From NCBI RefSeq assembly GCF_007095465.1, contig NZ_SDGL01000003.1, forward strand, positions 62,001 to 126,000: a DNA stretch of 64,000 nucleotides. Reading direction: 5' to 3'. The DNA is from Lactobacillus mulieris (GTDB lineage: Bacteria > Bacillota > Bacilli > Lactobacillales > Lactobacillaceae). The notes below the pieces were generated by a model. It was not told the DNA's origin, searched no databases, and saw only the letters and a program-made list of their open reading frames with translations. Within the stretch, counting starts at the first letter, position 1; each line of letters opens with the position of its first letter. Position numbers and translations under genes: made by a program. This document shows positions 10,779-61,484 of the stretch, piece after piece.

Positions 10779-12581
10779 CTATAAAGTTAACTTTACAGAT
10801 TGAGCCTGTGGCAAAGTTAAGCCTGCATCTTGTAACTCCTCAACAGACGCATCCTTAATTTTTTTCAATGAGCCAAATTTCTTAAGTAGTTTATTACGAC
10901 TTTTAGGTCCTATTCCTTTAATTCCATCTAATTTACTTGCAAGTGAATTCTTGGCATGTGTTTGTCTATGAAAAGTAATTGCAAACCTATGAACTTCATC
11001 TTGGATTCTTGTCATTAGATAAAACCCTTCTGATTTAGGATCCATCGGGATAAGTTCTAAAGGTTTACCATTAATTGGATCACCAAAAATCAAATGATTG
11101 GTATGGTGATGATTATCCTTAACCATACCAGCAACAGGAATATCACAATTCAGTTCATTGCGCAAAACGTCTAGACAAGCATCTACCTGTATCTGACCAC
11201 CATCCATTAAAATTAAATCTGGCAGGCGAGAATGTTCTTTTAACATTCTACTATATCGACGTCTTACGACTTCACGTGTATTTCCAACTTCATCTGCACC
11301 ATTTTGATGCTCGACTTCACCTTTTAATTTATATTTACGATAAGCAGTCTTGAAAGGTTCTCCATCTTTAAAAACTACACAAGCTGAAACTGGATCTGTC
11401 CCTTGAATATGGGAATGGTCAAAACTCTCTATGATATGACCATATGGCAGACCCAAAGCTTTAAAAATTTCTGCTTGAGCTCCTTTGGTTTTACGATTTC
11501 CCAACTCAAGAAGCCGGAACTTTTCATCTAATTTAAGTTTAGCATTATCTTTAGCCATTTTAAGTAAATCACGTTTTGTTCCGCGCTGTGGAGTCCGAAC
11601 CTTTACACCAAGGACTTCACTTAAATTACCATTATCTAAATCTTCAGGAACAAGAACTTCTCTAGGTAAAATTCGATTCTTTTGATTATAAAATTGAACA
11701 ATAAAAGACATAAATTCATCTTTAGGATCTGATAAGTCCATCAAAGGGAACATTTTAGTTTCTCGCCGCAAAAGCTTAGCTTGTCTCAAAAAGAATATTT
11801 GAACAGAAATCCAACTTTTATCTACATAAAAATTGAAGATATCACGTTGAGTATGATCGTTAGAAATAATCTTTTGTTTTTCAACAGTTTGTTCAATATA
11901 TCTTAATTGATCTCTTATTTCAGCAGCTCGTTCAAATTCTAAATTACCACTTGCAATTTGCATCTTTTCTGTTAACTCTTGCTTCACCTGAGTGATATCA
12001 CCATTTAAAAAGCGCTTTATTTTTGCTATTTGTGCTTCATATTTACTACGCGGGACCTCTTGAAAACATGCACCTAAACACTGTCCCATATGATAATACA
12101 AGCAAGGTCTGCCTTGATGACCATTGCAACGTCTTAATGGCCAAACCTTTTGAATAAAACGCAATGTTGCTTGGGCGGCATAAACATTTGGATAAGGTCC
12201 AAAATAATAACCATTATCTTTATGAACAATTGAAGTTAAGCGTGTTTGAGGATCTTTTTCATTAGTTATTTCAATGTAAGGATAGCCAGTACCTTGCTTT
12301 AATTGAACATTATAATAAGGTTGATATTTTTTTATCAGCGTTATTTCAAGCAAAAAAGATTCTTTATCAGATGTCACTGTAATAATATCAAAATCAGCAA
12401 TTTCTTTAACTAACTCAGCTCTTCGGCCAACTTGCTTACTTTTAAAATATGAACGAACCCGATTTTTTAAATTTTTAGACTTACCAACATAAATAACAGT
12501 ACCATTGATATTTTTCATTAAGTAACAGCCTGGTTGTTCAGGTAATAACTTCAATTTATTTTCAATAAGTTGATTAGCCAA
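10779..12581 (-). CDS. uvrC: Excinuclease ABC subunit C
   Basis: A 600-residue nuclease that makes both incisions in UvrABC nucleotide excision repair. The GIY-YIG domain is at residues 10-90 (CYLMKN, VIYVGKSKNL, YYNVQL). A cysteine cluster RPCLYYHMGQC follows at about 170, then the UVR domain binding UvrB (FERAAEIRDQL). Next come the RNase H-like endonuclease domain (FDHSHIQG, MDGG) and a C-terminal helix-hairpin-helix DNA-binding pair (GIKGIGPKSRN). The chosen start is TTG at 12581, eight bases after AAGGGAG; a GTG three codons earlier overlaps that ribosome site. The length is normal. No LexA box was noticed upstream. Confidence 0.96.
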   Translation of the reverse strand: MANQLIENKLKLLPEQPGCYLMKNINGTVIYVGKSKNLKNRVRSYFKSKQVGRRAELVKEIADFDIITVTSDKESFLLEITLIKKYQPYYNVQLKQGTGYPYIEITNEKDPQTRLTSIVHKDNGYYFGPYPNVYAAQATLRFIQKVWPLRRCNGHQGRPCLYYHMGQCLGACFQEVPRSKYEAQIAKIKRFLNGDITQVKQELTEKMQIASGNLEFERAAEIRDQLRYIEQTVEKQKIISNDHTQRDIFNFYVDKSWISVQIFFLRQAKLLRRETKMFPLMDLSDPKDEFMSFIVQFYNQKNRILPREVLVPEDLDNGNLSEVLGVKVRTPQRGTKRDLLKMAKDNAKLKLDEKFRLLELGNRKTKGAQAEIFKALGLPYGHIIESFDHSHIQGTDPVSACVVFKDGEPFKTAYRKYKLKGEVEHQNGADEVGNTREVVRRRYSRMLKEHSRLPDLILMDGGQIQVDACLDVLRNELNCDIPVAGMVKDNHHHTNHLIFGDPINGKPLELIPMDPKSEGFYLMTRIQDEVHRFAITFHRQTHAKNSLASKLDGIKGIGPKSRNKLLKKFGSLKKIKDASVEELQDAGLTLPQAQSVKLTL

Positions 12582-12698
12582 AAAATTCACTCCCTTTATA
12601 TTCTACTTTTCTAGTCTAGCATGAAACTGCTTTTAAATGGCTTTTTATGTTTTACTTCCCTATAATTAAAAGTAAGATACAGGAAAAGGAGAATATTT

Positions 12699-13310
12699 AT
12701 GACTGAATGGATGATCAGCTTAATCAATCAGTTTGGTTTTTGGGCAATATTATTTCTAATTGCACTTGAAAACGTCTTTCCCCCAATCCCTTCTGAAGTA
12801 ATTCTTTCCTTTGGGGGATTTTTGACATTACATACGAAGATGTCATTATGGGAAGTAGTTCTTGCTTCAACAATTGGAAGCGTTCTTGGCGCATTAATAT
12901 TATATTATGCAGGCTCGCTTTTTACTGAAGTAAGACTAAAGAAATTAGTAAATAATAAATTTATCAAAATGCTTGGTTTTAAAGAAGATGATGTCAGTAA
13001 AACAATAGCTTGGTTTAACAAGCATGGAAAAGGGGCTATTTTCTATGGACGATTTGTACCGATAATTAGAAGTTTAATTTCAATTCCAGCTGGAACTGCA
13101 CAAGTTAAATTGCCGTTGTTCGTTGGACTTACCTTTTTAGGATCATTAATTTGGAACACAGTCTTATCCTCTCTTGGTTTTTACTTTGGTTCCAAGTGGG
13201 ACATAGTTGTTCAAATAATTGATGATTATGCAATTTTATGTGCTGGCTTATTAATCATTGGCTTTGGAATTGGTTGTGTATATTGGTATAAAAAGAGAAT
13301 AAAGAAGTAA
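12699..13310 (+). CDS. DedA/TVP38 family membrane protein
   Basis: A 203-residue integral membrane protein of the DedA (SNARE-associated) family, several members of which are now linked to lipid-carrier or phospholipid translocation. It has the family's re-entrant motif NVFPPIPSEVIL near the N-terminus, the conserved FYGRFVPIIRSLISIPAG segment in the middle, and four to five hydrophobic helices ending in a basic tail YKKRIKK. The ribosome site AAAGGAG precedes the ATG, and a TATAAT at 12661 may be its -10 box. It is monocistronic, ending in a strong terminator. Confidence 0.9.
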   Translation: MTEWMISLINQFGFWAILFLIALENVFPPIPSEVILSFGGFLTLHTKMSLWEVVLASTIGSVLGALILYYAGSLFTEVRLKKLVNNKFIKMLGFKEDDVSKTIAWFNKHGKGAIFYGRFVPIIRSLISIPAGTAQVKLPLFVGLTFLGSLIWNTVLSSLGFYFGSKWDIVVQIIDDYAILCAGLLIIGFGIGCVYWYKKRIKK

Positions 13311-13318
13311 TTATAAAA

Positions 13319-13360
13319 AAGTGTCTGCCACTTAATCATTCAGGTGTCAGACACTTTTTG
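13319..13360. terminator. Bidirectional terminator after the DedA gene
   Basis: Stem AGTGTCTG.CAC with GTG.CAGACACT around a 12-base loop, with T runs on both strands. The stop codon of the minus-strand pseudogene lies inside this stem. Confidence 0.8.
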
Positions 13361-14077
13361 TTTTATTTTTCTTTTTTAACTCTTTTTTATGTTTAGGTGC
13401 CTTATTCATAACAGAATTTGCATCAGTTTTGTTCTCTCGCTTTTCAATCTTTTGATTATCAGAAGATGATGAATTTATTGTGTTAGATTTTAGACTTTCA
13501 GTGGTTAATTGTGGTTTTGAATTATTAACTAAAGAAGTAACTGGCTTTTTATTAACAGGTCTATCTGCGAAATTATTCTCTATACTTTTTACAGTTGGGT
13601 TAAGACTTGTCCTAACATTCGAGCTACTATCTATTAGTTCACTACTTGAACTGGAATTACTTTCACTTGTACTTGCTTTACCACTACTTGCACTAGTACT
13701 TGATTTGTGCTTGTAAATTTTATTGATGAGATTAATCTAGTTGGTTCTGCGTGGTAAATTGCAATTTTATCACCTTTTTTTAAAGTAAAATTTTCATTGA
13801 ACTTAATACCTTTATTACCAATATACGTGTGGTGCTACACCAGTTGCAACCACATTTAAATTACTTCCATTAATTTCAATTGTAGCAAATTTAGTATCAC
13901 CTAAGCCCTTAAAAGTCCAGCTATAACCTTGTGACCGCTGATCAGTTTGTGAAGGAGAGGTGCTTTCTGCTTTAACTGCTTGTACAGTATTTCCAACACT
14001 TAATAAACTTGCAGCAATTGCAGAACTTATTAAAATATTTTTCTTAAAATCACCTTTTTTAAAAACTCTTTTTTCAT
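13347..14077 (-). pseudogene. Decayed secreted serine-rich protein gene (three frameshifts)
   Basis: No complete reading frame spans this segment, but three successive minus-strand frames join into one plausible exported protein. From the ATG at 14077 only 15 codons are open. One extra A in the poly-A run near 14068-14074 would give MKKRVFKKGDFKKN and a signal peptide ISSAIAASLLSVGNTVQA. The second part has a YSWTFKGLGDTKFATIEI domain that stops near 13829; the next frame continues IGNKGIKFNENFTLKKGDKIAIYH. The last frame, from about 13720, is a Ser/Thr/Asn-rich, then lysine-rich tail ending KHKKELKKKNKTKSV. The family is not recognised and no wall anchor is seen. Three independent shifts argue for real decay rather than a single sequencing error. 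Confidence 0.75.
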
Positions 14078-14218
14078 TTTGTAACCTCTTTTACCCTAAT
14101 ACAATCAAAATTATAGCAAATAGCTTGAGCTTTTACCCTTTCAAACTAGCTTAAAAAGATATTAAACGTTATAATATATAAATAAATTTTTTCAATTTTA
14201 ACGAGGTGAGGTTTATCA

Positions 14219-15601
14219 ATGAATATTTTTAGAAAAGAAAGCATTAATAAATACCTAGCCCAAGATCATAAATTTAGTAAAACGCTAACTGCTAAAGATT
14301 TAATTTCTTTAGGTGTTGGTGCAGTTATCGGGACTGGAATTTTTATTCTACCTGGAACTGTAGCTGCTAATTATGCTGGGCCAGGTGTGACCCTGTCATT
14401 TTTACTTGCTGCATTAGTATGTGTTCTTAGTGCTATGTCATATGCTGAATTTAGTTCAACTATGCCTGTTGCTGGGAGTGCATATTCATATGGAAATATT
14501 ATTTATGGTGAAATTATTGGCTGGATATTAGGTTGGGCCTTAATTTTGGAATATATGTTAGCCGTTGCTGCGGTTGCAGCCGGTTGGTCAAGCTATTTTC
14601 AATCATTCTTAGCACCATTTAATATTAAATTACCAGCTGCATTTGTAAGTTCTTTTAATCCAAGCAAGGGAACTTATATTGACATAATTGCTATTGGGAT
14701 TGTTTTATTAATTACACTCTTATTGTCTCGTGGAATGCGGGATTCTGTAAAAATTAATAATTTTGCTGTTATTCTAAAAATTGCAATTATAGTTTTATTT
14801 ATAATAGTTGGTGCAAACTTTATTAAGCCAGCTAATTATCAACCATTTCTTCCATATCATTTTTCTGGAGTAATAAAAGGAGCAACTACTGTATTCTTTG
14901 CCTTTCTAGGTTTTGATTGTGTATCAAGTTCTGCTGCGGAAGTTAAAAATCCTCAAAAGAATATGCCCCTTGGCATTATTGGTACTTTATTAATTGCAAC
15001 CCTATTTTATATGGGAGTTTCAATTGTACTTACAGGAATGGTTAACTATAAAGCTCTTGATGTAGCAAATCCCGTGGCTTTCGCTTTACAATTCGCACAT
15101 CAAGACTGGATTGCCCAACTCCTCTCATTTGGAGCGCTAGTAGGTATGGCAACTATGATGTTAACTATGATTTATGCGAGTTCTAGATTGGTATATGCAA
15201 TGGCACGTGATGGTCTTTTACCACAATCACTTGCTAAATTATCAACAAAAAATAAAACTCCACAAATAAGTTTATGGGTAGTAGCTATTATTATTAGCTT
15301 AGGGGCTGGAGTATTTTCTGTAGATCAATTAACTAGTCTAGTAAACTTTGGAACCTTATTGGCATTTACATTTGTTTCATTTGGAATCTTACCACTTAGA
15401 AAAAGAAAAGATTTACCAAATAATGGATACCAAATGCCAGGATACCCTGTTTTACCAATTCTTTCTGGATTAATTTGTTTATATTTATTAACCCAACTTA
15501 ATATTGATGTTTATATTATGGCAACAATCTGGTTTAGTTTGGGAATAATTATCTATTTCTTATATGGTTATAAACACAGTCTTTTAAACAAAAATCAGTA
15601 A
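14219..15601 (+). CDS. APC-family amino-acid permease
   Basis: A 460-residue integral membrane transporter of the amino acid-polyamine-organocation family, nearest in style to YfnA/cationic amino-acid transporters. The first helix carries the family's unwound substrate-site motif GVGAVIGTGIFILPG. The conserved AFLGFDCVSSSAAEVKNP region lies in the middle. About twelve hydrophobic helices can be counted. The ribosome site CGAGGTGAGG precedes the ATG. The substrate cannot be named from sequence. It has its own terminator and appears to be transcribed alone. Confidence 0.88.
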   Translation: MNIFRKESINKYLAQDHKFSKTLTAKDLISLGVGAVIGTGIFILPGTVAANYAGPGVTLSFLLAALVCVLSAMSYAEFSSTMPVAGSAYSYGNIIYGEIIGWILGWALILEYMLAVAAVAAGWSSYFQSFLAPFNIKLPAAFVSSFNPSKGTYIDIIAIGIVLLITLLLSRGMRDSVKINNFAVILKIAIIVLFIIVGANFIKPANYQPFLPYHFSGVIKGATTVFFAFLGFDCVSSSAAEVKNPQKNMPLGIIGTLLIATLFYMGVSIVLTGMVNYKALDVANPVAFALQFAHQDWIAQLLSFGALVGMATMMLTMIYASSRLVYAMARDGLLPQSLAKLSTKNKTPQISLWVVAIIISLGAGVFSVDQLTSLVNFGTLLAFTFVSFGILPLRKRKDLPNNGYQMPGYPVLPILSGLICLYLLTQLNIDVYIMATIWFSLGIIIYFLYGYKHSLLNKNQ

Positions 15602-15615
15602 AATTGTTCTTATTT

Positions 15616-15650
15616 AAACTACTATCATGTATAATGATAGTAGTTTTTTT
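15616..15650 (+). terminator. Terminator of the permease gene
   Basis: Stem AAACTACTATCA / TGATAGTAGTTT followed by T7. The loop contains TATAAT at 15630-15635, which could also be the -10 box of the next gene, with TTCTTA 17 bases upstream. That overlap is only suggestive. Confidence 0.8.
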
Positions 15651-15666
15651 ATGAAAGGTTACCAAA

Positions 15667-16605
15667 ATGAAGAACATTTACTTTAATCACGATGGAAATA
15701 CAGACGATTTAGTTTCTTTACTTTTACTTTTACAAGCTCCAGATATCAACTTAATTGGAGTCAGCGCGATTGATGGCGATGGTGATGTGGTTGCATCATG
15801 CGAAGCTAGCAGAAAAATAATTGATCGTTTCAATACTTTCAACCATCAATTAGAAGTAGCTATGTCTAATTCACGTGCCCATCACCAATTCCCAGAAGAA
15901 TGGCGTCAAAGCACCTTTACATTTAACAGCTTTCCGATTTTGAATGAACATGGCACAATTAATACACCAGCCGCTAAAAATCCTGCTCATATCGATATGG
16001 CAGAAAAAATTATGGCTCAAACTGAAAAAACGACTTTAATTATGACTGGTCCGATAACCGATTTAGCTCGGGCTCTTGATTATGAACCAAGCCTTGAAAA
16101 CAAAATTGATAAATTATATTGGATGGGTGGTTCATTAGACGGTCATGGAAATGTATTTGTTCCTTATTATGACACAACTCAAGAATGGAACGCTTTTTGG
16201 GATCCAGAAGCAGTTGAACGAGTTTGGAATTCAAATATTGACATTCAGATGGTTGGCCTCGAAAGCACGGAAGAAATCCCATTAAATGAGGATCTTAAAC
16301 AACATTTTGCCAGTTTACGACGTTATCCTGCAATGGATTTAATTGGGTTAGGCTATAGTTTAATCATTTCTTCTCAACCTGGTAATCAATATTATTTATG
16401 GGATGTCTTAACTACGTTATCAGCCCTTTATCCTAATTTAGTCGAAACTCGCAAAGCCAAATCATATGTTCTGACCCAAGGTGCAGCTGCTGGGCGCTTA
16501 GTTGAATCAAAGCAAGGACGTCCAATGACTCTAGTTACCAAGGCAGATAAGAAAAAGTTTTTCGAAAAATTTGATGAGTTAGCATTAAGTGCTAAATTTA
16601 AGTAA
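15667..16605 (+). CDS. Inosine-uridine-preferring nucleoside hydrolase family protein
   Basis: A 312-residue enzyme expected to split the N-glycosidic bond of ribonucleosides to base plus ribose, for nucleoside salvage. The N-terminal calcium-binding motif reads NHDGNTDDLVSL, a variant of the canonical DxDxGxDD. TGPITDLARAL and MGGSLDGHGNV are the middle conserved stretches, and ExNxxxDP is represented by EWNAFWDPEA. A C-terminal EST/histidine region follows. The variant first motif places it in the subgroup common in lactic acid bacteria. The gene starts with GAAAGGTTACC ahead of the ATG. It is monocistronic. Confidence 0.87.
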   Translation: MKNIYFNHDGNTDDLVSLLLLLQAPDINLIGVSAIDGDGDVVASCEASRKIIDRFNTFNHQLEVAMSNSRAHHQFPEEWRQSTFTFNSFPILNEHGTINTPAAKNPAHIDMAEKIMAQTEKTTLIMTGPITDLARALDYEPSLENKIDKLYWMGGSLDGHGNVFVPYYDTTQEWNAFWDPEAVERVWNSNIDIQMVGLESTEEIPLNEDLKQHFASLRRYPAMDLIGLGYSLIISSQPGNQYYLWDVLTTLSALYPNLVETRKAKSYVLTQGAAAGRLVESKQGRPMTLVTKADKKKFFEKFDELALSAKFK

Positions 16606-16637
16606 AAAATAGGATTGGTTAAACCCAATCCTATTTT
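16606..16637. terminator. Bidirectional terminator shared by the nucleoside hydrolase and the membrane-peptide gene
   Basis: Stem AATAGGATTGG / CCAATCCTATT with about six T on each side, placed between the two convergent stop codons. Confidence 0.85.
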
Positions 16638-16730
16638 TTATTCATTATCTTGAATAATAATATGATGTGAAAAGATATATGCACAAACCAAAACGAAAAC
16701 GACAAAGACAGAAGTTAAAATAATTGCCAT
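16638..16730 (-). CDS. 30-residue single-span membrane peptide, function unknown
   Basis: A short reading frame found by eye. It encodes 30 residues: an N-terminal hydrophobic helix MAIILTSVFVVFVLVCAYIF, then SHHIIIQDNE with an acidic end. A good ribosome site AAAGGGTGG lies seven bases before the ATG, an AT-rich promoter-like stretch precedes it, and it ends exactly at a strong terminator. All three support real expression. The size and single-helix form resemble subunit-type microproteins (KdpF/CydX-like) and type I toxins of the Fst/Ldr kind. No antisense RNA gene or partner operon is visible, so no function is assigned. Confidence 0.6.
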   Translation of the reverse strand: MAIILTSVFVVFVLVCAYIFSHHIIIQDNE

Positions 16731-16809
16731 AAACAGCCCACCCTTTTTATATATCTATAATTATCCTATCATGTTTTCGCTTTCAATGTCCAAAGATACG
16801 CTTCTTATA

Positions 16810-17619
16810 CTAAATTTCTGGCCCTTTCCAACCAGCATTAAGCAAATGAACTCGATCTTTTTTTTGATACCAATCACAAGCAAAATTAACAAAGTCCTGT
16901 AAATTAAAAATCAAAATCTGACCTGCAGGTAAATTTGCAATCTTAACAGGATATTTTTGTAAAAAATGAGTTCCTAAATCTTCATAATCATGATATTTAT
17001 TTAATTCCACATTATTAAAGCTTACCCAAACTTTTTCACCTGCAATTAATACAGGGGCTTTTTCTTGAATTAGAGGTCGTGATATTTCTGATTCTGCCAA
17101 GTAAGGTGCTAAACATGTTTCAAAATTTGTACCTAAACACACCACTTTGGCATTCAATCTCAGTAAACGTCCTAAAACCCCTTGTTTTCCAAATGGCAAA
17201 TCAAAAGTATGGGCCTTTACAATTGTTTCTTTGTCTTTTCCCCATGCTGAAAAAGAATAAATTGGATGATTGTCACGCAAAACTTCCTTTTGCATTCGAA
17301 AGTATTCCATAAAAGAATCTAACCCCGTCACAGGAGTAGCTTCAGAATCAAATGCTGGCATTTTTTTCATAATTTTTTCTTTTAACTCTGCCCTAACTTG
17401 TGGTTCTTTCAAATGTAAGCTAAAACTTGGCAAAATAATATTGCCATCTTTAACTAATAACTTCAGAGCGGAAAAAAGAGACTGTTGTTTCCCTGGAAAA
17501 ATTCCCAGTGCAGACATCCGTAAATTTACTAACAAAGTGTCAGTAGAACTTATTCCCATTTCTCTTAACGACTGGGCTAAATCTGTATCAGAATAAATTA
17601 ATTCTCTATCTTCTTCCAT
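16810..17619 (-). CDS. AAC(3)-family N-acetyltransferase
   Basis: A 269-residue protein of the AAC(3)/YokD fold, which transfers acetyl from acetyl-CoA to an amine. Family features visible are the DTLLVNLRMSALG start region, LPSFSLH, the RDNHPIYSFSAWG motif corresponding to the conserved HP....SfaA, and the GRLLRLNAKVVCLG CoA-site segment. Some chromosomal members give aminoglycoside resistance and many do not. This one has a short, divergent C-terminus (HLLNAGWKGPEI), so resistance should not be assumed. The ribosome site GAGGAAAAAT precedes the ATG. It is divergent from the PTS operon, sharing a 365-base intergenic region. Confidence 0.78.
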   Translation of the reverse strand: MEEDRELIYSDTDLAQSLREMGISSTDTLLVNLRMSALGIFPGKQQSLFSALKLLVKDGNIILPSFSLHLKEPQVRAELKEKIMKKMPAFDSEATPVTGLDSFMEYFRMQKEVLRDNHPIYSFSAWGKDKETIVKAHTFDLPFGKQGVLGRLLRLNAKVVCLGTNFETCLAPYLAESEISRPLIQEKAPVLIAGEKVWVSFNNVELNKYHDYEDLGTHFLQKYPVKIANLPAGQILIFNLQDFVNFACDWYQKKDRVHLLNAGWKGPEI

Positions 17620-17816
17620 AATTTTTCCTCTGCTGTTAGAAAATATTTACTTTTTAAGAATACTTTGGCAAAAAGTACGGTTTTCTTGTAAAAATCCAAT
17701 ATAAATAAAAATGTATACCTTCTTGTAAAATTTATCTGATTTTATTTTACCAGTCTGCACCCTAAAACACTAAAAAGTGGTTTATACCAAAGTGCTTTTT
17801 TCTCAATTATATATCT

Positions 17817-17843
17817 TTAGTTTGTAAAGCGATTACAAACTAA
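17817..17843. promoter_or_regulatory. Perfect 11-bp inverted repeat, likely operator
   Basis: Arms TTAGTTTGTAA and TTACAAACTAA flank the five bases AGCGA. It lies 142 bases upstream of the PTS start codon and 198 bases upstream of the divergent acetyltransferase start. The minus strand contains TTGTAATCG, resembling half of a catabolite-response element, but the odd five-base centre does not fit the 14-bp cre spacing. Another LacI-type or GntR-type regulator is therefore equally plausible. The remaining 17635-17984 intergenic DNA is AT-rich and shows no gene. Confidence 0.6.
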
Positions 17844-17925
17844 TAACTTCAAGGTTTCAAAAATTGGTCTAGTCATAATTTATGCTAATTTATCATACGG
17901 TTTATGTCAATAATTGAAAAATTGG

Positions 17926-17954
17926 TTAGCTTTTTCTAGCTATTAGTATATAAT
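17926..17954 (+). promoter_or_regulatory. Possible promoter of the PTS operon
   Basis: TATAAT at 17949-17954 with a weak -35 candidate TTAGCT 17 bases upstream. The start codon follows 31 bases after the -10 box, with a GGAGG ribosome site between. No convincing sigma-54 -24/-12 element was seen, although many mannose-family PTS operons use one. Confidence 0.5.
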
Positions 17955-17984
17955 CAGTAACAGATTGATTTTGGAGGCGAAAAT

Positions 17985-18899
17985 ATGCCTAATTTATTAT
18001 TAATTAGTCATGGAAGCTACGCCAAGGCAACTTTAAGCAGTTGTGAAATGATTCTTGGCCAGTTAAAAAATATAAAAGCAATTGAATTTAAGCAAACCAT
18101 GAATCAGGATGATTTACTTAAAGAAATCGAAGTTGCAGCACAAACATTTACAAAATTAGATGCAATTATTGTAGATTTTACTGGAGGAACTCCGGCAAAT
18201 ACTGCAATTAGGTTTCAAGCCCAACATCCAGAAGTAAAGATATATACAGGTTTATCTTTTTCCTTACTTTTGGCAGTTGCAAGTGGAACGCCATTCTCTG
18301 ATGCATATAAACAAGTAGCACAAACAAGTGGCTTATTAGGAGAAAAAAAGCCGGAAGAAAAAAACAAGGTTAGCACTATAACTAAAAGTACAACTCAAAA
18401 AACTGCTATGTTTGTCCGAATTGATGAACGTTTAATTCATGGACAAGTTGCGACTATGTGGACTAATGCTTTAAAACTAACAAGGTTAATGGTAATTGAT
18501 GATCAAATTGTTAAAAGTCCCATTCAAAAAACTGCTCTTAAAACAGCTTGCCCTAATGGTATTCATTTAAGTATCCTAACAGCTGCAGGTGCAGCTAAAA
18601 GAATCAAGCAAGGACAATATCAGGGGCAAACAGTTTTAATTTTAGTAAAAAGACCTGCGATTTTAAAGCAACTAGTTGATTTGGGACTTAAGTTACCAGA
18701 AATCAATGTTGGTAATATGTCAACCAAAGAAGGATCTCAGCAAGTCGCAAAAAGTGTTGCCGTAACAGTCAGTGATATTGCTGATTTTAAATACTTAGCA
18801 GACAAAGGACTAACTATATATCATCAAATGATACCTAGTGAAGCACGAGAAGATTTTATGAACTTACTTAAAAGTAACGAAACTGGAGGACAAAATTAA
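17985..18899 (+). CDS. PTS mannose-family fused EIIA-EIIB component
   Basis: A 304-residue cytoplasmic phosphocarrier of a mannose/fructose/sorbose-type phosphotransferase system. The EIIA domain (about 1-125) has the phosphorylated histidine in LLLISHGSYA (His9) and DFTGGTPAN. A linker rich in Lys, Thr and Ser (about 125-143) joins the EIIB domain, whose active histidine is in RIDERLIHGQV. Phosphate passes HPr to EIIA to EIIB to the incoming sugar. The stop codon abuts the EIIC start (TAATG overlap), indicating coupled translation. The ribosome site TTGGAGGCG is strong. The sugar is not predictable. Confidence 0.93.
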   Translation: MPNLLLISHGSYAKATLSSCEMILGQLKNIKAIEFKQTMNQDDLLKEIEVAAQTFTKLDAIIVDFTGGTPANTAIRFQAQHPEVKIYTGLSFSLLLAVASGTPFSDAYKQVAQTSGLLGEKKPEEKNKVSTITKSTTQKTAMFVRIDERLIHGQVATMWTNALKLTRLMVIDDQIVKSPIQKTALKTACPNGIHLSILTAAGAAKRIKQGQYQGQTVLILVKRPAILKQLVDLGLKLPEINVGNMSTKEGSQQVAKSVAVTVSDIADFKYLADKGLTIYHQMIPSEAREDFMNLLKSNETGGQN

Positions 18900-24106: not shown

Positions 24107-24370
24107 AAAAAGAGCCTTCCATCCCCAATTGTATAAGGGACGAAAGGCTCTTTCCGCGGTACCACCCAACTTGTCAAACAATGACCACTCTAAATCAGAT
24201 GCAATCACATCTGTCCCGAGATAACGTTGGGGATTACGTCTTGGCCTACTGAATTCGACCTCGCAGCATGAAAAAGTGTTTTTCAAAAAATTCAGGGTCT
24301 GCTAACTTTCCACTAGCTGTCAGCTCACTGTAAGAATGAATTAATCTACTCGTCTTTTAGCTTTTAATTA
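24107..24370 (-). ncRNA. T-box leader (tRNA-sensing riboswitch) of asnA
   Basis: The minus strand contains the T-box consensus GGTGGTACCGCGG (24154-24166). It is followed by a terminator, AAAGAGCCTT pairing with AAGGCTCTTT and ending in a T run (24107-24153). A CAGATG/CATCTG helix lies before it, and a long stem I region extends upstream to about 24370. Uncharged tRNA is expected to stabilise the antiterminator and raise asnA expression. The specifier codon was not resolved: a GAC (Asp) lies at 24238-24240 and an AAC (Asn) at 24226-24228, and structure modelling is needed to choose. The 5' end is approximate. Confidence 0.9.
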
Positions 24371-52750: not shown

Positions 52751-55700
52751 TTACTTATCTTCTTTTTTCTTACGGCTAACTAATCCTAAAGCCATACTCA
52801 TACCTAAACCAAGTAATCCAAGTAAGCTTGCATTTGTCTTGCTTTCACCTGTTTGAGGTAATTTTTCTGCCTTAGTAGCTGAATTTAACTTGTTAATTCT
52901 TCTTGCTGCAGACTTAGCAGATTTGAAGTTTCCTTTAACCACATTAGTTTTAGTTAGACTTGGGTGAATTTCAGGCTTAACATTTTCAGGATGTGTGTTT
53001 GCTGCAGGCTTTGGATTTGATGTAGGAGTTGGTTCTGGTGTTGGGGCTGGACTTGGTTCTGGAGCAGGAGTTGCAATCTTTTCATAAGTTACGGTGAAGT
53101 GCTCGTCCTTTGCAGTTGCTGGGTTTAAGTTTTCATCGTCAATTGATTGAACAACCTTGCCGTCAGAATTCTTGATCACAGCCTTGTAGCCGTCGACTGA
53201 GTCAACTGATATAGCGTTGAACTTATTTTCAACTTTAGGATCGTTATCCCAAGTGATGGTGCCGTCAGGGTTTTGACTGCCGCTGAATGTAACAGTTTGA
53301 GTCTTAGTGCTTGGCTTTTCACCAGGCTTAGTGATAGTAACGGTTCTAGTTACTTCTCTTGAAACGAGTGGTTCTAGAGACTTACCTGTTGGAAGGTAAA
53401 TTATGTCAAAAATTTCATCTTGGCTGTTTTCAGTTACTTCTTCAGCAGGGATGCTTGTTACATCGTGAGTTTGACCATCGACTGTTTCAGTAATCTTAAG
53501 CTTGAAGCCGTCAAGTAGTTCAACATTTGTTGCATCAAAGCCCTTCTTATCAGAAGTCCAAGTACCTTCCTTAACTGTCTTGCCAGTAACAAGGTCGATT
53601 GAATCTGTCTTATTAAAGGTTACTTTCTCTGTTGTACTTACAGTCTTTTCACCAGGCTTTGTAATATTAACAGTTCTTGTTACTGTCTTAGTTTCTGTAT
53701 CACCAGCTTTGGTACCGTGTTGAACATTAATGGTATAAGTTGCATCGCTTGTTCCATAAGTGGTTGGGATTGTTTGATCATTTACAATCTTATAACCCTT
53801 ATTTTGTAAGTTTTTCTTTACTTTGTTCCAATCATATCCAGTATCAGTGTTTGGATCACCTTTGCCACTAAAGCCATAGTAAGTCAAATCAGTGTCGGTA
53901 TCGTTGTCGTGAACTGTAACTGTCAAGCTATGTTGAACAACTGTGTAGACTAAATCATCTTCACTATTTGCTTGTTCATTTGCGGCTGCAGTTACTTTGT
54001 CATTTTCAACTTTGAGCCCCTTCTTGGTAGTTGAATTTGCTACATAGCCATCAATTTGTGGAATATCGATTGCATCATAGTTTTCTGATGAAGCTTTCCA
54101 GTCAGTGGTTCTTGGATCCTTAACGATTTGACCATTAGTCTTATCTACATAAACGGTTCTTGTCCAGTCGACACTCTTGGTAATTGAAGCATGTAAGACT
54201 TTTCCATCTTTATCTAAGAAGTGAAGCGTGAAGGTGTAGGCCTTCTTGTATTGGTCTTCGCTTGGCCACTTTGGTCCTTCTGGATCATTTGGATTAATTG
54301 TAGTGCCAGGCTTTTCAGGATTATCTGGTCCAACCGGTACTACTTCATGTTCTACATGGATGGTGTAAGTTGCATCGCTTGTTCCATAAGTGGTTGGAAT
54401 TGTTTGATCATCTACAATCTTGTAACCCTTATTTTGCAAGATTTGCTTTACTTTGTTCCAATCGTATCCAGTATCGGTGTTTGGATCACCCTCGCCTTTG
54501 AAGCCATAGTCATCCAAATCAGTGTCGATATCGTTGTCGTGAACTGTAACTGTCAAGCTATGAGCATTTACAGTGTAAGTTACGTAGTAGACTTCATTTG
54601 CTGAATTAATTGTTATGTCATCATTTTCTGGGATACTCTCAACAACTTGACCAGTAGCGGTATCCTTATGAATTACAGCAGTGTAGTTAGGCTGATCATC
54701 TGGGGTATATCCAGCTAAAGTACCCTTTTCAGGAGTCCAAGTACCATCTGAAAGCTTATCACCATTTACTGCATCAAGCGTTGGAGTTCTACTGAATTCA
54801 ACTGACTTTTCAAAGACTTTTGTTGGTTCAGTTTCTCCTGGATTAATTGCGTATACAGTTCTTTTTACTGTCTTAGTTTCCTTTTCTCCATCCTTTGTAC
54901 CATGCTTCATCTTGATAATGACATCGTTGCCATCAAGAACTACCGTTGTTGGCACTTCTCCAACTGGAATATAGCCATCTTCAGGCGTCTTACTCTTAAT
55001 TGTGTAAGTTGAACCTTCTTGACCACCAGCATTTTCACTTTGAATAACCTTGTATCCGCCGTACCCCTTATCACTTGTATCAGGAGTTTGAGTATCTACC
55101 CAGTAGATGGTTTCTGAACTTTCAATTGGATTGTAAGTTACGTAGTAGGTTTCGTTTGGAGTATCTGCATTGACATTGGTCTTAGCTATAATGCTATTAA
55201 CTTCTTGACCATCTGCGCTGTCTTTGTGAATTACAGGGGTGTAATGATCAACCTTATCTGGAGTAAATGCATCCCAACTACCTGATTCTAGAGTCCAAGT
55301 ACCTGAATCAATAACTTTAGTATGATCAACAGCATCTACAGTTGGCGTTCTGGTAAAGGTGATGGTTTTGTCATATTTCTTAGTTGGCTCATTTTCACCA
55401 GGCTTAGTTACATAGACGATTCTAGTTAAAGTCTTTGTTTCTTTAGTCCCCTGCGTAGTACCATGCTTCAACATGATGTAGACGTTATTGCCATCGACTG
55501 TGACGCTCTTAATGTCTACTTGATCATCAGCTAAGACATAGTTAGTTGGAGTTTTCTTAGTCAAAGTGTAAGATGAATCTTCAATTTGACTTGGAGTGTC
55601 TTCACTTTGAACTACCTTCAATCCCTTTTGACCTGCTGGGTCTTGAGTTTCTGTATCAAGCCAGTAGACGACCTCACTCTTATTAATTGGATCATATGTT

Positions 55701-58700
55701 ACGTAGTAGGTTTCATTTGGAGTATCTGCATCAACATCGGTCTTAGCAGCGATACTGTCAACGACGTTACCGTCAGCGGAACCTTCGTGAATCACTGCTT
55801 TGTAGTGAGGAACTTCATCTGGGGTAACTGCCGTCCAACTAGTATCGTTATCTTTTGCTACCCAGGTGCCTTCGTTAACAACTTTTGTTGGAGTGACCGC
55901 ATCAACAGTTGGAGTTCTAGTGAAGGTGAGAGTCTTGTTATATTTTACAGTTGGCTCAGTTTCATCAGGCTTAATTTCATAAATAGTTCTATTTACTGTC
56001 TTTGTTTCTTCAGTCCCCTGCGTAGTACCATGCTTCAACATGATGTAGACGTTGTTGCCATCAACTGTAACACTAGTAACTGGGGCTTGACCATCAGCTA
56101 AGACATAGTTATCGGGAGTTTTCTTAGTCAAAGTGTAAGATGAATCTTCAATTTGACTTGGAGTGTCTTCACTTTGAACTACCTTCAATCCCTTTTGACC
56201 TGCTGGGTCTTGAGTTTCAGTATCAAGCCAGTAAACTGTCTCACTCTTATTAATTGGATTATATGTTACATAGTAGATGTCACTTGGAGTATCACCAGTT
56301 GCATTATTAATTTGATCAATACTTTGAACAGTTTCGCCATCTGGAGTGCCCTTGTGAATCACAACTTTATAATGATCTTGTGGTGTTGGAGTATAACCAT
56401 TAATTACCGCAGAATCTGGATCCCAGTCACCATGTTCAATTTGACCATTTACTGCATCAACCACATTATCACGGGTAAATTCAATTGCAGTATTTACTAC
56501 CCTACTTGCCTTAGTTGCATTTGGTTTAGTTACATAAACAACTCTAGTAACAGTTCTAGTTTCTGGCACTTTATTTGTGCGGTGCTTCAACTTGATAATG
56601 ACGTTATTACCATCGACAGTAACGCTCTTAATATCTGCTTGACCATCAGCTAAAACATAGTTTTCTGGTGTTGATTTAGTTAACTGGTAAATACTTCCTT
56701 CAAGTTGTTCTGAGACTAGTTCACTAGCAACAACCTTGTATCCTTCTTGTCCTGCTGAGTCTTTAGTTTCAGTATCTACCCAGTAGACAGTTTCACTCTT
56801 CTTAATTGGAGCGTATGTTACGTCAAATGTTTCATCTGAAGAACCAGCTGTTACAGTTTCAGTTGGAATTGCAGTTGCAGAGTCATCGGCCTGCCCATTT
56901 TTACTAATCTTAGTGGTGTAATGGTCAACTTTAAGATCATCTTCAGTTAAACCAGTGAACTGATCACTATCACTAGTTCTGGTCCATTTTCCTTCAGTAG
57001 GTTGATTAGTTACTAAATCAGTAGAATCGGTCTTTGAGAAGGTTACAGATTGCTTAGTAGTTTTAGTTTCTTCACCAGGCTTAGTGATGTTGATAGTTCT
57101 AGTAATAGTCTTAGTCTCAGTGTTAGTACTAATCTTGTGCTTCAATCTAATAACAACATCTTGACCGTTATTAGTGATCTCAGTTACTTGGTCTTGTCCG
57201 TCAGCATAGTCATAATTTTCAGGTAATTTATCCAATGTGGCTTTTGTGCCTGGATAATCAGTTACATCTTGCTTTTGAACTAACTTAAAACCATCTTTAC
57301 TATCACTACTAGTATCTGGAGTTTGAGTATCTACCCAGTAGACATGTAAAGTAACTTGAGCTGGACCAACACTCACATTAACAATTTCATTCACGGTGAT
57401 ATCGGCAGTATCACCAGCAGTTTGCTTTTGGTTGATAGTATTAATTAAGTCATCAACACTAACTTCCTTCACGCCATAAACGCTATTGCCCTCAGAATCA
57501 GTTTGCTTAATGATTGGACTTTGAATATTATCAGCTGACATTTCAGTTGCTGGAATTGTTTCCCCGCTGACTGGATCAGTGGTAAGCTTACGACCGTCTT
57601 CATCAGTGACTTCAACTTTAATTAAATCGCCACTTTGCACTTGACCAAAGAGGTACTTGTCCCAACCACTAGTTGTTGGGGTTACCATTTGCCATTTGCT
57701 ATATTCTTCAACCTTGCCTGTTGCTTCGTTAACAGTTGCAGTTCTATATAACTTAAGTGTTTCAGTTTTACTGCCAACTAATTGCTTGTCTTTGTTATAA
57801 ACATTAATTGTCCGAGTAACCTCTTTATAAAGTGCTTGTTTATCAACGTGTTCTGGATAATTCATATTTGGATTATCTGGAAGCGGTGTGTCAGGAGTCT
57901 TGGGACCATCTGGAGTTTTACCAGAAACAGTAATCTTCTTTGATTCAACATAAAAGTCAATTTCTTGTCCACCAGTAGTTGAAACAGTAACTCCCCAACT
58001 TAAGTTAGAGCCACTACCATTAGTAAAGACTGGACCGTTAATGCTGTAGCCTGGTTGAACATTAGCTGTGATTAAGTCAGCCGGAATATTTGCTTGAGGG
58101 TAGTCTTGGCTAATAATCAAGGAGCTGTCATTTGGATTGTATTCTTTTTCCATTGAAGGAATTTCAATCTTAGTTCCATCAGCCTTAACTAACTTAACTG
58201 GGACTTTTACCAATCTGTTAATCCGAATAGTAGCCGCAATTTGTTCATTTGGATTTGCTTTACTATTGATTTGAGTTACTATTTGCGGAGCCATACTATC
58301 TGAATATAGCCCGTTTGCCAAAAAGCCTATTCCGTTGAAGTCACCTTCAGCTGTTGTGTCTTGCCCATTTAAGATAATGCGGCCACTTTGACTATTAGCA
58401 GCAATTGTTGGTAAATAAATCTCAATGGTCTTAATGATGTTCCAGTCAGTTACTTGAGCTGCACTAACAAAACTACTCAAATCACTGATATCAGACATAT
58501 TACCATTAAAGTTAAAGTCTTGAGTTGAATATTTAACTTCAGCATTCTTTAAATCATCTGGCAATTGAATTGGACCTGTCAATCTAAAGGTCATAGTTCT
58601 ACCATATTTATCAGGGTGCTGTGAACCCACATAACCGCCTTGACCACTTGGCAAAGACAAGATGATGTGATTATTGCTTAATTCTTTTGAACTAGTATTA

Positions 58701-60880
58701 ATGACAGAGTAAGCAAATTGGAGGTTTTCACCCTTCTTATTTGTAGCTTGAACTCTTTGACGCCAAATACCGTCGGGACCGGCGGAAAGCGTTACTCCAG
58801 TTTCTGAATCACCTAAACCAACCTTGGCGGTAAAACTACCTAAATCATAAAGTTGATTATCGTTTGTAAGACCAAGTAATTTCTTAACATCATCTGAACT
58901 TGCTGGGTTAGTCGTCTTGTCCATTGGCGTGGTAGTGTCAATGTAGGCTTTAATGTCGTAGGAACCCTTTGCAGCATCAGGTAAAGCTTGAATCCAAAAG
59001 CCTAAAAGTTTTGGTTGACCTTCATCGTCTTTTTCTTGATTTGCAAAGTCATAAGTAAAGCCTGTGCCTTTGTAGTCAACTTTAACAGTGTATGAACCAT
59101 CGCTATTCTTAAATTCCGAAATCTTTGGCACAACACCTTGGAAGTTCTGGACATAAAGCCCGCTCAGTTTTTGAGCAGAAATTCCCTTTGGCATTACGTA
59201 GTAAATAGTTGGTTCATAAACAGTCCCTAACTTAGTGACACTAGAATTACCTAAAGTAGTGTATAAGTAACCAATTTGACCGCCAGGAGCTACTGTCATG
59301 GTACCAGTTGATTGCAACTGCAAGGTTGAAGTTTGCTGACCAACAGTTTGATGCAATTCACTAGATGATGTGTAATTATGATTGTCAACTGTTCCGTTTA
59401 AACTAAAGCTTGAATCAAGCTTGTCACCTGCTTGACTACCACTGGCTGTAGTAATCTTGCCGTAGAACTTGAAGACTTGATCACCGGTGACATTTGCACC
59501 AGTCAATAATTGATCTGGAGTAAAAGTCAAGCTAACAATTGGTGAAGAATCAGTGTTGACGATATCTTCATTAGCGTTAACTTGACCAGTTTGAACGGTA
59601 TTATCAGCTCTAACAATCCGGTATTGATAAGTCTTAACGCCTGACAAGAACATACCAGCTGATTCAGGTGTAGTTACCTTATAGACGTGCTGATTGCTTG
59701 AAAAAGTGAAGCTGAATTGGGCACTACCATTAGTAAAGGAATCAGAACTATTGACGCTATAGCCAAAGCTGCCGATTAAATCATCGTTTTCGTGATCAAG
59801 CATCAGAACTTGACTATCACGCTTAGGAGTACTGGTGGTAGTGACATCCCCATAAATACTCTTAATCTGTTCTTTTTCTTGAGTTGATTGTTGCTCAGCT
59901 GGTTTTGAAGCAGCCTTCTTAACTTCGTCTTCAGTTGTTTTACCAAGTAAAATATCGACAAAAGTACCATTTGAAGCTGTTTTTGAATAAGTATCTGAGT
60001 AATTTACCGTTGCACTAATTACAGCTCCAGTTGGTGTGTAAGCCTTTGTATCTTGATCAGGTTGATCCCCATTAAAGTGACCTACAAAGTAGTATGGAGC
60101 AACTGAAGTTTGATTAAGGTCAACACCTTTCCCCTCAGGAATGGTGATGATAATATCCTTACCTACGCCATCTTGGGTAATTTCGGTTCCGTCATTTAAA
60201 GTATTTAAGGCATCAGTTGCTGCTTTATTTAATTCAAAGTTCGAGGCAACTGGAATAGTGATGACAGATCCAGCATTAAAGTCCTTTGGCACACGGTTGT
60301 AGTTATTAATTCCAATTTGATTGGATAAATCTACTGAATAAGTGTGGTCAGTGCCCATTTTAACTGCATTAGTTCCGCCGACACGCTTGACAGGATTTAT
60401 GGAAAGTGATGGTTCAACATCGTAGACAAAATCAGCCGGCGTTTGTTCTTTGCCATTTACTTCCCAGGTTACTTGATAAGTGTGTGGACCGACATCTGCT
60501 TGAGTAATGTTATAAAGACTCGGATCTATGCCAGTAACATTAGTAGTCTGCAAATCATATAGGTGAAAACTAACATGAAAAGTAGATGTCGCATTCATGG
60601 TTATTTTGATAGTCGCACCTTGATTATTACTGTCAACATTGACACTAGCAACAGTTGGTGGTAATTGAGTATCACCATCTTGTTGACCCCATATCCCCTT
60701 AAATGGAATATGGACAGAAATTACATCCCCAGCTTGTGCCGAATAGGAAATATTTAGTGTATGTTTTGAAGTTTTGCCATCAAAAGTGTTGTTGTCAAAG
60801 TAAACGCCATTTTGTTCTTGCGTGTCATTTGAAGATACACCATTTGTAGTGGCAACTGAGTTTAACTTTGTTTGTTCCAA
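52751..60880 (-). CDS. Giant mucus-binding-type LPXTG adhesin, main part (out of frame with its signal peptide)
   Basis: About 2709 codons encoding a surface protein. The N-terminal 1000 residues are non-repetitive beta-rich domains. Five repeats of about 185 residues follow (YWVDT...VTKPGE...VTYxPI), then two HSLTVTVHDND repeats and Mub-type KTVTRTVNITKPGEK modules. The end is a proline-rich wall spanner and LPQTGE, a hydrophobic helix and RKKKEDK, for sortase attachment. The frame's first listed codon is a TTG without a ribosome site. The frame is really open up to 61021, where it would join the signal-peptide fragment if the G run had one more base (2861 residues in all). As read here it has no proper start. 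Confidence 0.85.
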   Translation of the reverse strand: MEQTKLNSVATTNGVSSNDTQEQNGVYFDNNTFDGKTSKHTLNISYSAQAGDVISVHIPFKGIWGQQDGDTQLPPTVASVNVDSNNQGATIKITMNATSTFHVSFHLYDLQTTNVTGIDPSLYNITQADVGPHTYQVTWEVNGKEQTPADFVYDVEPSLSINPVKRVGGTNAVKMGTDHTYSVDLSNQIGINNYNRVPKDFNAGSVITIPVASNFELNKAATDALNTLNDGTEITQDGVGKDIIITIPEGKGVDLNQTSVAPYYFVGHFNGDQPDQDTKAYTPTGAVISATVNYSDTYSKTASNGTFVDILLGKTTEDEVKKAASKPAEQQSTQEKEQIKSIYGDVTTTSTPKRDSQVLMLDHENDDLIGSFGYSVNSSDSFTNGSAQFSFTFSSNQHVYKVTTPESAGMFLSGVKTYQYRIVRADNTVQTGQVNANEDIVNTDSSPIVSLTFTPDQLLTGANVTGDQVFKFYGKITTASGSQAGDKLDSSFSLNGTVDNHNYTSSSELHQTVGQQTSTLQLQSTGTMTVAPGGQIGYLYTTLGNSSVTKLGTVYEPTIYYVMPKGISAQKLSGLYVQNFQGVVPKISEFKNSDGSYTVKVDYKGTGFTYDFANQEKDDEGQPKLLGFWIQALPDAAKGSYDIKAYIDTTTPMDKTTNPASSDDVKKLLGLTNDNQLYDLGSFTAKVGLGDSETGVTLSAGPDGIWRQRVQATNKKGENLQFAYSVINTSSKELSNNHIILSLPSGQGGYVGSQHPDKYGRTMTFRLTGPIQLPDDLKNAEVKYSTQDFNFNGNMSDISDLSSFVSAAQVTDWNIIKTIEIYLPTIAANSQSGRIILNGQDTTAEGDFNGIGFLANGLYSDSMAPQIVTQINSKANPNEQIAATIRINRLVKVPVKLVKADGTKIEIPSMEKEYNPNDSSLIISQDYPQANIPADLITANVQPGYSINGPVFTNGSGSNLSWGVTVSTTGGQEIDFYVESKKITVSGKTPDGPKTPDTPLPDNPNMNYPEHVDKQALYKEVTRTINVYNKDKQLVGSKTETLKLYRTATVNEATGKVEEYSKWQMVTPTTSGWDKYLFGQVQSGDLIKVEVTDEDGRKLTTDPVSGETIPATEMSADNIQSPIIKQTDSEGNSVYGVKEVSVDDLINTINQKQTAGDTADITVNEIVNVSVGPAQVTLHVYWVDTQTPDTSSDSKDGFKLVQKQDVTDYPGTKATLDKLPENYDYADGQDQVTEITNNGQDVVIRLKHKISTNTETKTITRTINITKPGEETKTTKQSVTFSKTDSTDLVTNQPTEGKWTRTSDSDQFTGLTEDDLKVDHYTTKISKNGQADDSATAIPTETVTAGSSDETFDVTYAPIKKSETVYWVDTETKDSAGQEGYKVVASELVSEQLEGSIYQLTKSTPENYVLADGQADIKSVTVDGNNVIIKLKHRTNKVPETRTVTRVVYVTKPNATKASRVVNTAIEFTRDNVVDAVNGQIEHGDWDPDSAVINGYTPTPQDHYKVVIHKGTPDGETVQSIDQINNATGDTPSDIYYVTYNPINKSETVYWLDTETQDPAGQKGLKVVQSEDTPSQIEDSSYTLTKKTPDNYVLADGQAPVTSVTVDGNNVYIMLKHGTTQGTEETKTVNRTIYEIKPDETEPTVKYNKTLTFTRTPTVDAVTPTKVVNEGTWVAKDNDTSWTAVTPDEVPHYKAVIHEGSADGNVVDSIAAKTDVDADTPNETYYVTYDPINKSEVVYWLDTETQDPAGQKGLKVVQSEDTPSQIEDSSYTLTKKTPTNYVLADDQVDIKSVTVDGNNVYIMLKHGTTQGTKETKTLTRIVYVTKPGENEPTKKYDKTITFTRTPTVDAVDHTKVIDSGTWTLESGSWDAFTPDKVDHYTPVIHKDSADGQEVNSIIAKTNVNADTPNETYYVTYNPIESSETIYWVDTQTPDTSDKGYGGYKVIQSENAGGQEGSTYTIKSKTPEDGYIPVGEVPTTVVLDGNDVIIKMKHGTKDGEKETKTVKRTVYAINPGETEPTKVFEKSVEFSRTPTLDAVNGDKLSDGTWTPEKGTLAGYTPDDQPNYTAVIHKDTATGQVVESIPENDDITINSANEVYYVTYTVNAHSLTVTVHDNDIDTDLDDYGFKGEGDPNTDTGYDWNKVKQILQNKGYKIVDDQTIPTTYGTSDATYTIHVEHEVVPVGPDNPEKPGTTINPNDPEGPKWPSEDQYKKAYTFTLHFLDKDGKVLHASITKSVDWTRTVYVDKTNGQIVKDPRTTDWKASSENYDAIDIPQIDGYVANSTTKKGLKVENDKVTAAANEQANSEDDLVYTVVQHSLTVTVHDNDTDTDLTYYGFSGKGDPNTDTGYDWNKVKKNLQNKGYKIVNDQTIPTTYGTSDATYTINVQHGTKAGDTETKTVTRTVNITKPGEKTVSTTEKVTFNKTDSIDLVTGKTVKEGTWTSDKKGFDATNVELLDGFKLKITETVDGQTHDVTSIPAEEVTENSQDEIFDIIYLPTGKSLEPLVSREVTRTVTITKPGEKPSTKTQTVTFSGSQNPDGTITWDNDPKVENKFNAISVDSVDGYKAVIKNSDGKVVQSIDDENLNPATAKDEHFTVTYEKIATPAPEPSPAPTPEPTPTSNPKPAANTHPENVKPEIHPSLTKTNVVKGNFKSAKSAARRINKLNSATKAEKLPQTGESKTNASLLGLLGLGMSMALGLVSRKKKEDK
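53731..54562 (-). repeat. Two HSLTVTVHDND repeats in the adhesin
   Basis: Two copies (53731-53932 and 54361-54562, 630 bases apart) encode nearly the same block, with GDPNTDTGYDWNKV and QTIPTTYGTSDATYT in both. A KKAYTFTLHFLDKDGKVLH module lies between them. Confidence 0.8.
55090..57355 (-). repeat. Five tandem ~185-residue adhesin repeats
   Basis: The YWVDT/YWLDT motif recurs near 57340, 56785, 56235, 55660 and 55105, a period of about 553-575 bases. Copies at 55548-55651 and 56115-56218 are identical over 104 bases, 567 bases apart. That leaves room for recombination to remove or add whole repeats. Confidence 0.85.
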
Positions 60881-61017
60881 TTTCTTAGCAGCCGTAGTTT
60901 GATCAGTTGTTGAAATCGATTTAGCATCCTTTGCTTCACCTTTAGTTTTATCAGCACTAACTGCTTCTTGCTTTACACTACTTTCATCCCTATTTGTAGT
61001 TGAACTAGCAGCTTGAT

Positions 61018-61335
61018 CTACCCCCCATTTTCATTTTGGGTAGTAGTTGTAGCATGCATAGATGCTACTTGTTGATTTGACATATTAGCAGTTTTACTAC
61101 TATTTTGATTATTTGTTTTTTTATTCTGTTGATCAATCTGGCTTACGGTTTTAGTATCAGTTTCTGTCTCTGCTTGTACATCAGCCTTAACTGAACTTGG
61201 CATTGCACCAAAGTAAAAGACTGTTGCAATCAAAGCTGAAGCTAAGCCTACAGAAAACTTACGAAATCCAAAACGTGGCTTTTGCTCAGCCATTTGCTTC
61301 ATTTTATTTTTAAAGTTATTTCTAGATACTCCCAT
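61018..61335 (-). CDS. Adhesin N-terminal fragment with YSIRK-type signal peptide, truncated by frameshift
   Basis: A 105-residue fragment from the ATG at 61335, which follows TGGAGG. It has a basic N-region, the YSIRK-like RFGFRKFSVGLASALIAT, a hydrophobic core, likely cleavage after SSVKA, and a Gln/Thr/Asn-rich stretch. It ends in TAG immediately after the six-G run at 61021-61026. The downstream reading frame continues the same low-complexity style (VDQAASSTTNRDES). The short product would be exported and released without a wall anchor. Confidence 0.85.
   Translation of the reverse strand: MGVSRNNFKNKMKQMAEQKPRFGFRKFSVGLASALIATVFYFGAMPSSVKADVQAETETDTKTVSQIDQQNKKTNNQNSSKTANMSNQQVASMHATTTTQNENGG
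61021..61026 (-). other. G6 homopolymer at the adhesin frameshift (candidate phase switch)
   Basis: On the minus strand AAT-GGG-GGG-TAG ends the signal-peptide frame. With seven G it would read AAT-GGG-GGG-GTA-GAT and join the 8-kb body. Six G is short for a slippage tract but sits exactly at the break. Confidence 0.7.
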
Positions 61336-61374
61336 ATAAAACCTCCACAAATTATAGATATCTTTTGTATTCGG

Positions 61375-61421
61375 TTACAATGCTATTGTAATACTTTTTT
61401 ATAAACAATAGTAAATATTGT
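61375..61421. promoter_or_regulatory. Two inverted repeats in the adhesin promoter region
   Basis: TTACAAT-GCT-ATTGTAA (61375-61391) and ACAATA-GTAAA-TATTGT (61405-61421), with ATTGTAAT recurring 32 bases apart. The first overlaps a -35 candidate TTGTAA that is 18 bases from TATAAT (minus strand, 61354-61359). This could be an operator pair; the regulator is unknown. Confidence 0.5.
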
Positions 61422-61431: not shown

Positions 61432-61477
61432 AAATAAAAAACAGTATATCAGCTATCTTTCATAACTAATATACTGT
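61432..61477 (-). terminator. Terminator of mnmA
   Basis: ACAGTATAT/ATATACTGT stem with a 19-base loop, followed on the minus strand by a T-rich run. Confidence 0.7.
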
Positions 61478-61484
61478 TCAGAAT

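Follow-up and report, generated by a model that had tools for sequence, protein, structure and literature searches.

A G tract separating the signal and body frames of a mucin-binding-type adhesin of Lactobacillus mulieris as a probable phase-variation switch

In Neisseria, Campylobacter and Helicobacter, the length of poly-G tracts sets the reading frame of genes for surface structures and methyltransferases; in lactobacilli, differences in adhesion between strains are usually attributed to gene content. The pilin genes of Bifidobacterium breve UCC2003, Bbr_0113a/b and Bbr_1889a/b, are among the closest described systems, in that the open reading frames (ORFs) for the secretion signal and for the LPXTG body are split by a G tract. 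In that system, an upstream ORF of 65 residues precedes a body of 2,674 residues, replication slippage sets the joined frame, and strains with both parts in one frame showed pili (PMC9187656). Gardnerella, a vaginal Gram-positive bacterium, is described as carrying many tracts of at least 8 bases, some of them in apparent surface-protein genes, which are proposed to act via slipped-strand mispairing; approximately 70% of its G/C tracts are situated upstream of genes (PMC11287997). Here, we describe an adhesin gene of L. mulieris located on the minus strand of a 64,000-nucleotide stretch (contig NZ_SDGL01000003.1 of assembly GCF_007095465.1, positions 62,001 to 126,000; hereafter, the window), in which the signal and the body lie in different frames on either side of a run of six G residues. 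It is proposed, with a probability of approximately 0.78, that this locus is a simple-sequence contingency locus acting as a slipped-strand phase-variation switch, and that the allele present in the window is OFF.

The original prediction, made from the sequence alone, held that a YSIRK signal peptide with its own ribosome-binding site terminates at a TAG codon after six G residues, and that the frame behind it is open from that same G run for more than 8 kb to an LPQTG anchor; both statements were borne out, including their coordinates (Table 1). By the same prediction, one inserted G would yield a single protein of 2,861 codons. The signal ORF runs from an ATG at 61333 to 61335 to a TAG at 61018 to 61020, immediately 3′ of the G6 run, while the stop codon preceding the body frame is at 61031 to 61033, and this frame overlaps the G run and is stop-free as far as 52751. 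By its domain make-up (YSIRK signal, Muc_B2 repeats and LPXTG anchor), the predicted protein is a sortase-anchored mucin-binding-type adhesin whose signal occupies a separate frame in the window allele. No other G or C run of at least six bases occurs within the 64-kb window; as a run the G6 tract is unremarkable, and what is remarkable is its position, the homopolymer being placed where a change in length breaks or joins the reading frame. The notion that the run is rare in itself was rejected, with approximately 4.3 such runs expected in the window under a first-order model, and the GGG GGG codon pair proved uninformative as a rarity (0 of 63 Gly-Gly pairs in 33 window ORFs, with 0.7 expected). 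Separate initiation of the body at a listed TTG (position 60880) was likewise discarded, as the product would have no YSIRK signal and would thus presumably not be exported.

Under the proposed mechanism, slipped-strand mispairing at the G tract would change its length by whole bases, and this length would decide whether a ribosome starting at the signal continues into the body. The ON state would yield one exported, sortase-anchored mucin-binding-type adhesin; in the OFF state, to which the window allele would correspond, the product would end just after the signal. We infer switching within a clone, an ON state in L. mulieris and a function in adhesion. The interpretation as a switch is supported by the split at the tract, the variation in tract length, an in-frame ortholog in Lactobacillus psittaci, the open body and the localisation of tracts at YSIRK genes, each of which is considered below.

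The public proteins which match the signal or the body, and which are from L. mulieris where named (P0003 and P0004), are representatives of clusters formed at 90% identity, behind which a joined signal-body member could hide. P0001 and the window body agree at 2,756 of the 2,759 residues aligned; besides the first two residues, which depend on the frame, they differ only by T/P at body residue 2244. On the assumption that the flanks are as in the window, the first residues of P0001 imply a tract of 8, as do the body start of P0002 and the end residues of P0004, a signal piece. The P0002 and P0004 clusters have the same longest contig (186,034 bases), and P0002, which is 95% identical to the window across the first 1,000 body residues, is taken to represent a second L. 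mulieris lineage. Cluster sizes were 57 members on 3 contigs for P0001, 14 members on 1 contig for P0002 and 13 members on 6 contigs for P0004. The split is thus not peculiar to the window record, and two L. mulieris lineages carry it, with tracts of 6 and, as deduced, 8. Tract length is found to differ among close relatives with little other change, as deduced from proteins in L. mulieris and from DNA in L. psittaci.

These data also bear on the possibility of a homopolymer sequencing or assembly error in the window record. G runs are error-prone in some sequencing technologies, and a length of 6 at the adhesin gene occurs only in the window among the readable sequences; nevertheless, such an error is judged most improbable, as the split is also present in other public records (the P0004, P0001 and P0002 clusters) and the error would need to amount to two bases relative to P0001. 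Of two outcomes named beforehand as arguing against a switch, namely, seven G residues in all strains, or six in all strains with decay of the body, neither was seen. A search with the body detected no relative among genome contigs, a search of viral contigs likewise detected none, and there was no match in phages (near-mode search) or plasmids (distant-mode search).

At the L. psittaci locus adjoining mnmA (L001), a tract of 7 (at 11620) is contained within a single open frame of 2,357 codons (11320 to 18393). The signal is 72% identical to that of the window and the tract is conserved, while two stretches of the stalk are 62% and 70% identical; the head is mostly without similarity, only the stretch from the linker onward being matched (29% identity over 169 residues). 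These alignments indicate that the upstream region, signal and tract have been conserved while the head differs. Of 75 genomes of the genus searched, 23 matched the head, the best body match being 34% identical, and the signal-tract-body junction pattern was detected in L. psittaci only. A deeper alignment of the head took in 17 of the 25 matched loci, one of them only in part. Elsewhere in L. psittaci (G001:C1 near 245133; loci L233 and L081), a 12,445-codon open frame combines a YSIRK signal with a head related to that of the window adhesin.

Selection on the body frame was assessed by comparing the window with P0002, which covers the entire body through to the anchor, over those ungapped blocks that reached 60 residues and 85% identity (2,560 residues); the excluded blocks came largely from the repeat region, and the whole alignment contains 334 differences. 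The blocks held 213 missense and no nonsense differences, where 10.0 to 12.5 nonsense differences were expected from the codons at risk per 213 missense changes (P = 4e-6 to 5e-5), which suggests that the body is kept open by selection. The alternative of a fixed loss in L. mulieris, whereby an ancestral frame break would have produced a pseudogene in which later tract changes are neutral, would accommodate the out-of-frame state of both L. mulieris lineages, the failure to find a joined protein and the possibility that P0003 is a shortened copy. It would not readily account for a stop-free alignment of the two bodies despite 213 amino acid differences (10 to 12 stops expected), nor for a signal, ribosome site and anchor which are all intact, and a fixed loss is consequently considered unlikely. 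In a comparison by eye with window positions 54000 to 57000, P0003 was missing the sequence between two stalk repeats that are nearly identical, which may mean that recombination alters stalk length; as its contig spans only 7 kb, assembly collapse is also possible.

The distribution of G tracts at other YSIRK genes provides a further line of evidence. The L. psittaci genome contains 14 distinct G runs of at least seven bases (20 overlapping matches). Six of them, every one on the sense strand, are located at most 300 bases from a YSIRK motif (12 motifs in the genome), where 0.034 would be expected under random placement over 1.5 Mb and two strands (P = 6e-13). The remaining eight comprise two in the N-termini of neighbouring methyltransferase-like genes and six elsewhere, one of which is flanked by the hexamers TTGACA and TAGAAT and precedes a gene whose product has a signal-like start. 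In a sample drawn without regard to tracts, consisting of the best 100 YSIRK matches by E value among the matches listed for the 75 genomes, six G runs of at least six bases were present over the 300 bases that begin at the YSIRK start (30,000 bases in total) and one in the following 272,530 bases (P = 6e-6). A single C run of at least six bases occurred in the same first 300 bases, and A and T runs were far commoner than G runs, peaking upstream. G runs of at least seven bases within −500 to +600 were associated with 6 of the 100 genes (5 of 32 genomes), versus 1 of 100 for C. Among the YSIRK frames, a G tract was present in 3 of the 8 with fewer than 125 codons versus 3 of the 92 longer ones (Fisher P = 0.006). 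One of the short frames lacking a G tract (L304; G048:C1:1087499), of 77 codons, has its stop just 3′ of a C7 run and may represent the same kind of break at a C tract.

When all loci and the window were combined, 17 distinct YSIRK genes with a G run of at least six bases within 360 bases of the YSIRK pattern were obtained, many of them chosen because of a tract, so that the proportions among them mean little. Their tracts range from 6 to 11 bases. In 11 of the 17, the YSIRK frame continues through the tract without a stop, for at least 400 codons in every case; it is broken in the other 6, the stop lying directly after the tract in 4 (the window included), 22 bases later in L169 and before the tract in L165. 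All six broken genes possess an alternative frame that remains open for 473 codons or more past the tract. The bases following the tract are TAG or TAA in 10 of the 17. A G run directly before a stop codon would be a plausible slip site. An alternative to switching is recoding, in which slippage of the ribosome or of transcription on the G residues would give some full-length protein at any tract length; recoding at contingency loci is reportedly named in the title of a paper cited by the B. breve pilin study. If the signal for recoding were fixed, its length would be expected to stay constant; tract length, however, varies between strains, and related genes possess both open and broken frames at differing tract lengths; we accordingly attach very little probability to recoding.

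Several observations weigh against the interpretation of the locus as a switch. No L. mulieris protein joining the signal to the body was found, either in the body search, which yielded 3 proteins among 7,981 scored candidates, or with the L. psittaci N-terminus as the query, which yielded 1 L. psittaci protein among 245 candidates; both L. mulieris tract lengths (6 and 8) are out of frame, an in-frame tract being seen only in L. psittaci. The tract lengths of public L. mulieris strains were deduced from protein starts and ends, because only L. psittaci among the 75 genomes displayed the junction pattern. A six-base tract is short and is expected to slip less often than longer tracts. The test for stop codons concerns one sequence pair, and database proteins are open by nature, stop-bearing copies being listed as pieces, which slightly lowers confidence in a switch; P0003, which begins inside the head, could be a broken piece or reflect a contig edge (7,096-base contig). 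Upstream of the 100 sampled YSIRK genes, G runs of at least six bases numbered two at 0 to 500 bases, three at 500 to 1000 and none in the next 500, and the clustering of G runs is not confined to the signal end. Furthermore, 94 of the 100 genes are without such a tract in their first 300 bases, and only some of the broken YSIRK genes can be put down to G tracts, because five of the eight short frames have none. On balance, the proposal that the homopolymer serves as an on/off switch gained support from the variation in length, the selection for an open body and the recurrence at YSIRK genes, whereas a recent origin of the break could not be established, the frame being split in both L. mulieris lineages observed.

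The coordinates of the features of the locus are collected in Table 1. The five neighbours scanned encode MnmA, a DUF1831 protein, a CMD protein, a cupin and a LysR regulator, with no sortase among them, the rest of the window not having been scanned for sortases. A profile search of the PDB identified no solved-structure relative of the adhesin head, and PHROGs provided no match to the body and one weak match, to an unknown family, for the signal piece. The window also contains a T-box leader at 24133 to 24367 on the minus strand (Rfam RF00230, 93.8 bits).

Table 1. Positions of features of the adhesin locus in the window
Feature	Position	Strand	Remark
Shine-Dalgarno-like GGAGG	61342..61346	-	6 bases ahead of the ATG; conserved in L. 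psittaci
Signal ORF: YSIRK signal peptide and linker, 105 codons, TAG end	61018..61335	-	Pfam PF04650, E 5.6e-10
G6 tract, proposed switch	61021..61026	- (C on +)	Sole G/C run of at least six in the window; other lengths in relatives
Adhesin body, 2,759-codon open frame overlapping the tract	52751..61030	-	Eight Muc_B2 stretches and Gram_pos_anchor
Head region, without Pfam match	57752..60880	-	Distant relatives in other Lactobacillus adhesins, 24-30% identity over aligned pieces
Best-scoring Muc_B2 repeat of the stalk	53996..54259	-	Pfam
LPQTG sortase motif	52847..52861	-	PF00746 and TIGR01167 matches
Promoter-like pair TTGTAA-18-TATAAT, 5′ of the signal ORF	61351..61380	-	Weak: 3 sites in the region versus 2.8 in shuffles
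Terminator-like stem between mnmA and the adhesin gene	61439..61479	-	18 pairs, then a T-rich tail; 3 such sites versus 0.3 in shuffles

G tracts of other kinds were also encountered in Lactobacillus. Two adjacent methyltransferase-like genes of L. psittaci, L123 (G001:C3:151207) and L125 (G001:C3:153215), carry G8 and G9, respectively, at the same N-terminal place. L123, which is in frame with G8, matches type III methyltransferase models and a DNA methylase in Pfam; L125 is similar to it in sequence, is labelled a methyltransferase by this likeness and has its upstream peptide in another frame. This pair possibly constitutes a phasevarion, and a type III system survey by Atack and others may already cover Lactobacillus methyltransferases. 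At nine loci (L138, L153, L154, L158, L159, L162, L164, L121 and L128), G7 to G9 tracts follow a TTGAC-type hexamer and lead into TAAACT, TAAAAT or TAGAAT, seven of the nine being followed by an ORF whose start is signal-like or of the YSIRK type; these loci look like candidates for promoter-spacer phase variation. A further eight (L135, L139, L145, L150, L151, L155, L160 and L181) have G tracts near the junction of two small ORFs, perhaps prophage tail genes. We lean, with limited confidence, towards the existence of a hitherto undescribed poly-G phasome in Lactobacillus sensu stricto, which would comprise tracts located directly downstream of YSIRK signals, within the promoter spacers of surface-protein genes and inside type III methyltransferase genes; this recurrent G-tract module would stay in place while the adhesin head is exchanged between species.

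No report of poly-G phase variation of Lactobacillus adhesins was found in the openly licensed literature, among the listed titles and opening lines of abstracts. The kind of switch is known; this member of it and its recurrence in Lactobacillus appear to be unreported within that literature. Should adhesins switch at their G tracts, a genome sequence would represent the state of one cell, some "pseudogenes" would be OFF alleles, and probiotic stocks may be mixtures.

Compared with the systems introduced above, the window adhesin resembles the B. breve pilins, with which it shares a secretion signal and an LPXTG body placed in two ORFs across a G tract in a commensal host. The two differ in that the B. 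breve locus is an actinobacterial pilin operon with its own sortase, for which G11 and G12 populations at one locus are described and slippage was measured (PMC9187656), whereas the window locus would encode a Lactobacillus mucin-binding-type YSIRK adhesin with a tract of 6 to 8 and no sortase in the five scanned neighbours. Gardnerella is similar in having tracts in apparent surface-protein genes, and differs in being an actinobacterium whose G/C tracts are mostly upstream of genes (PMC11287997). Among the lactobacilli, the Muc_B2/MucBP adhesins of the YSIRK/LPXTG type consist, like the window protein, of a signal, stalk repeats and an anchor; most of the sampled YSIRK genes, of any body type, differ by the lack of an early G tract (94 of 100). 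The loci of Neisseria, Campylobacter and Helicobacter differ in their Gram-negative targets and in their tracts, which are usually longer than that proposed here to control a Lactobacillus adhesin.
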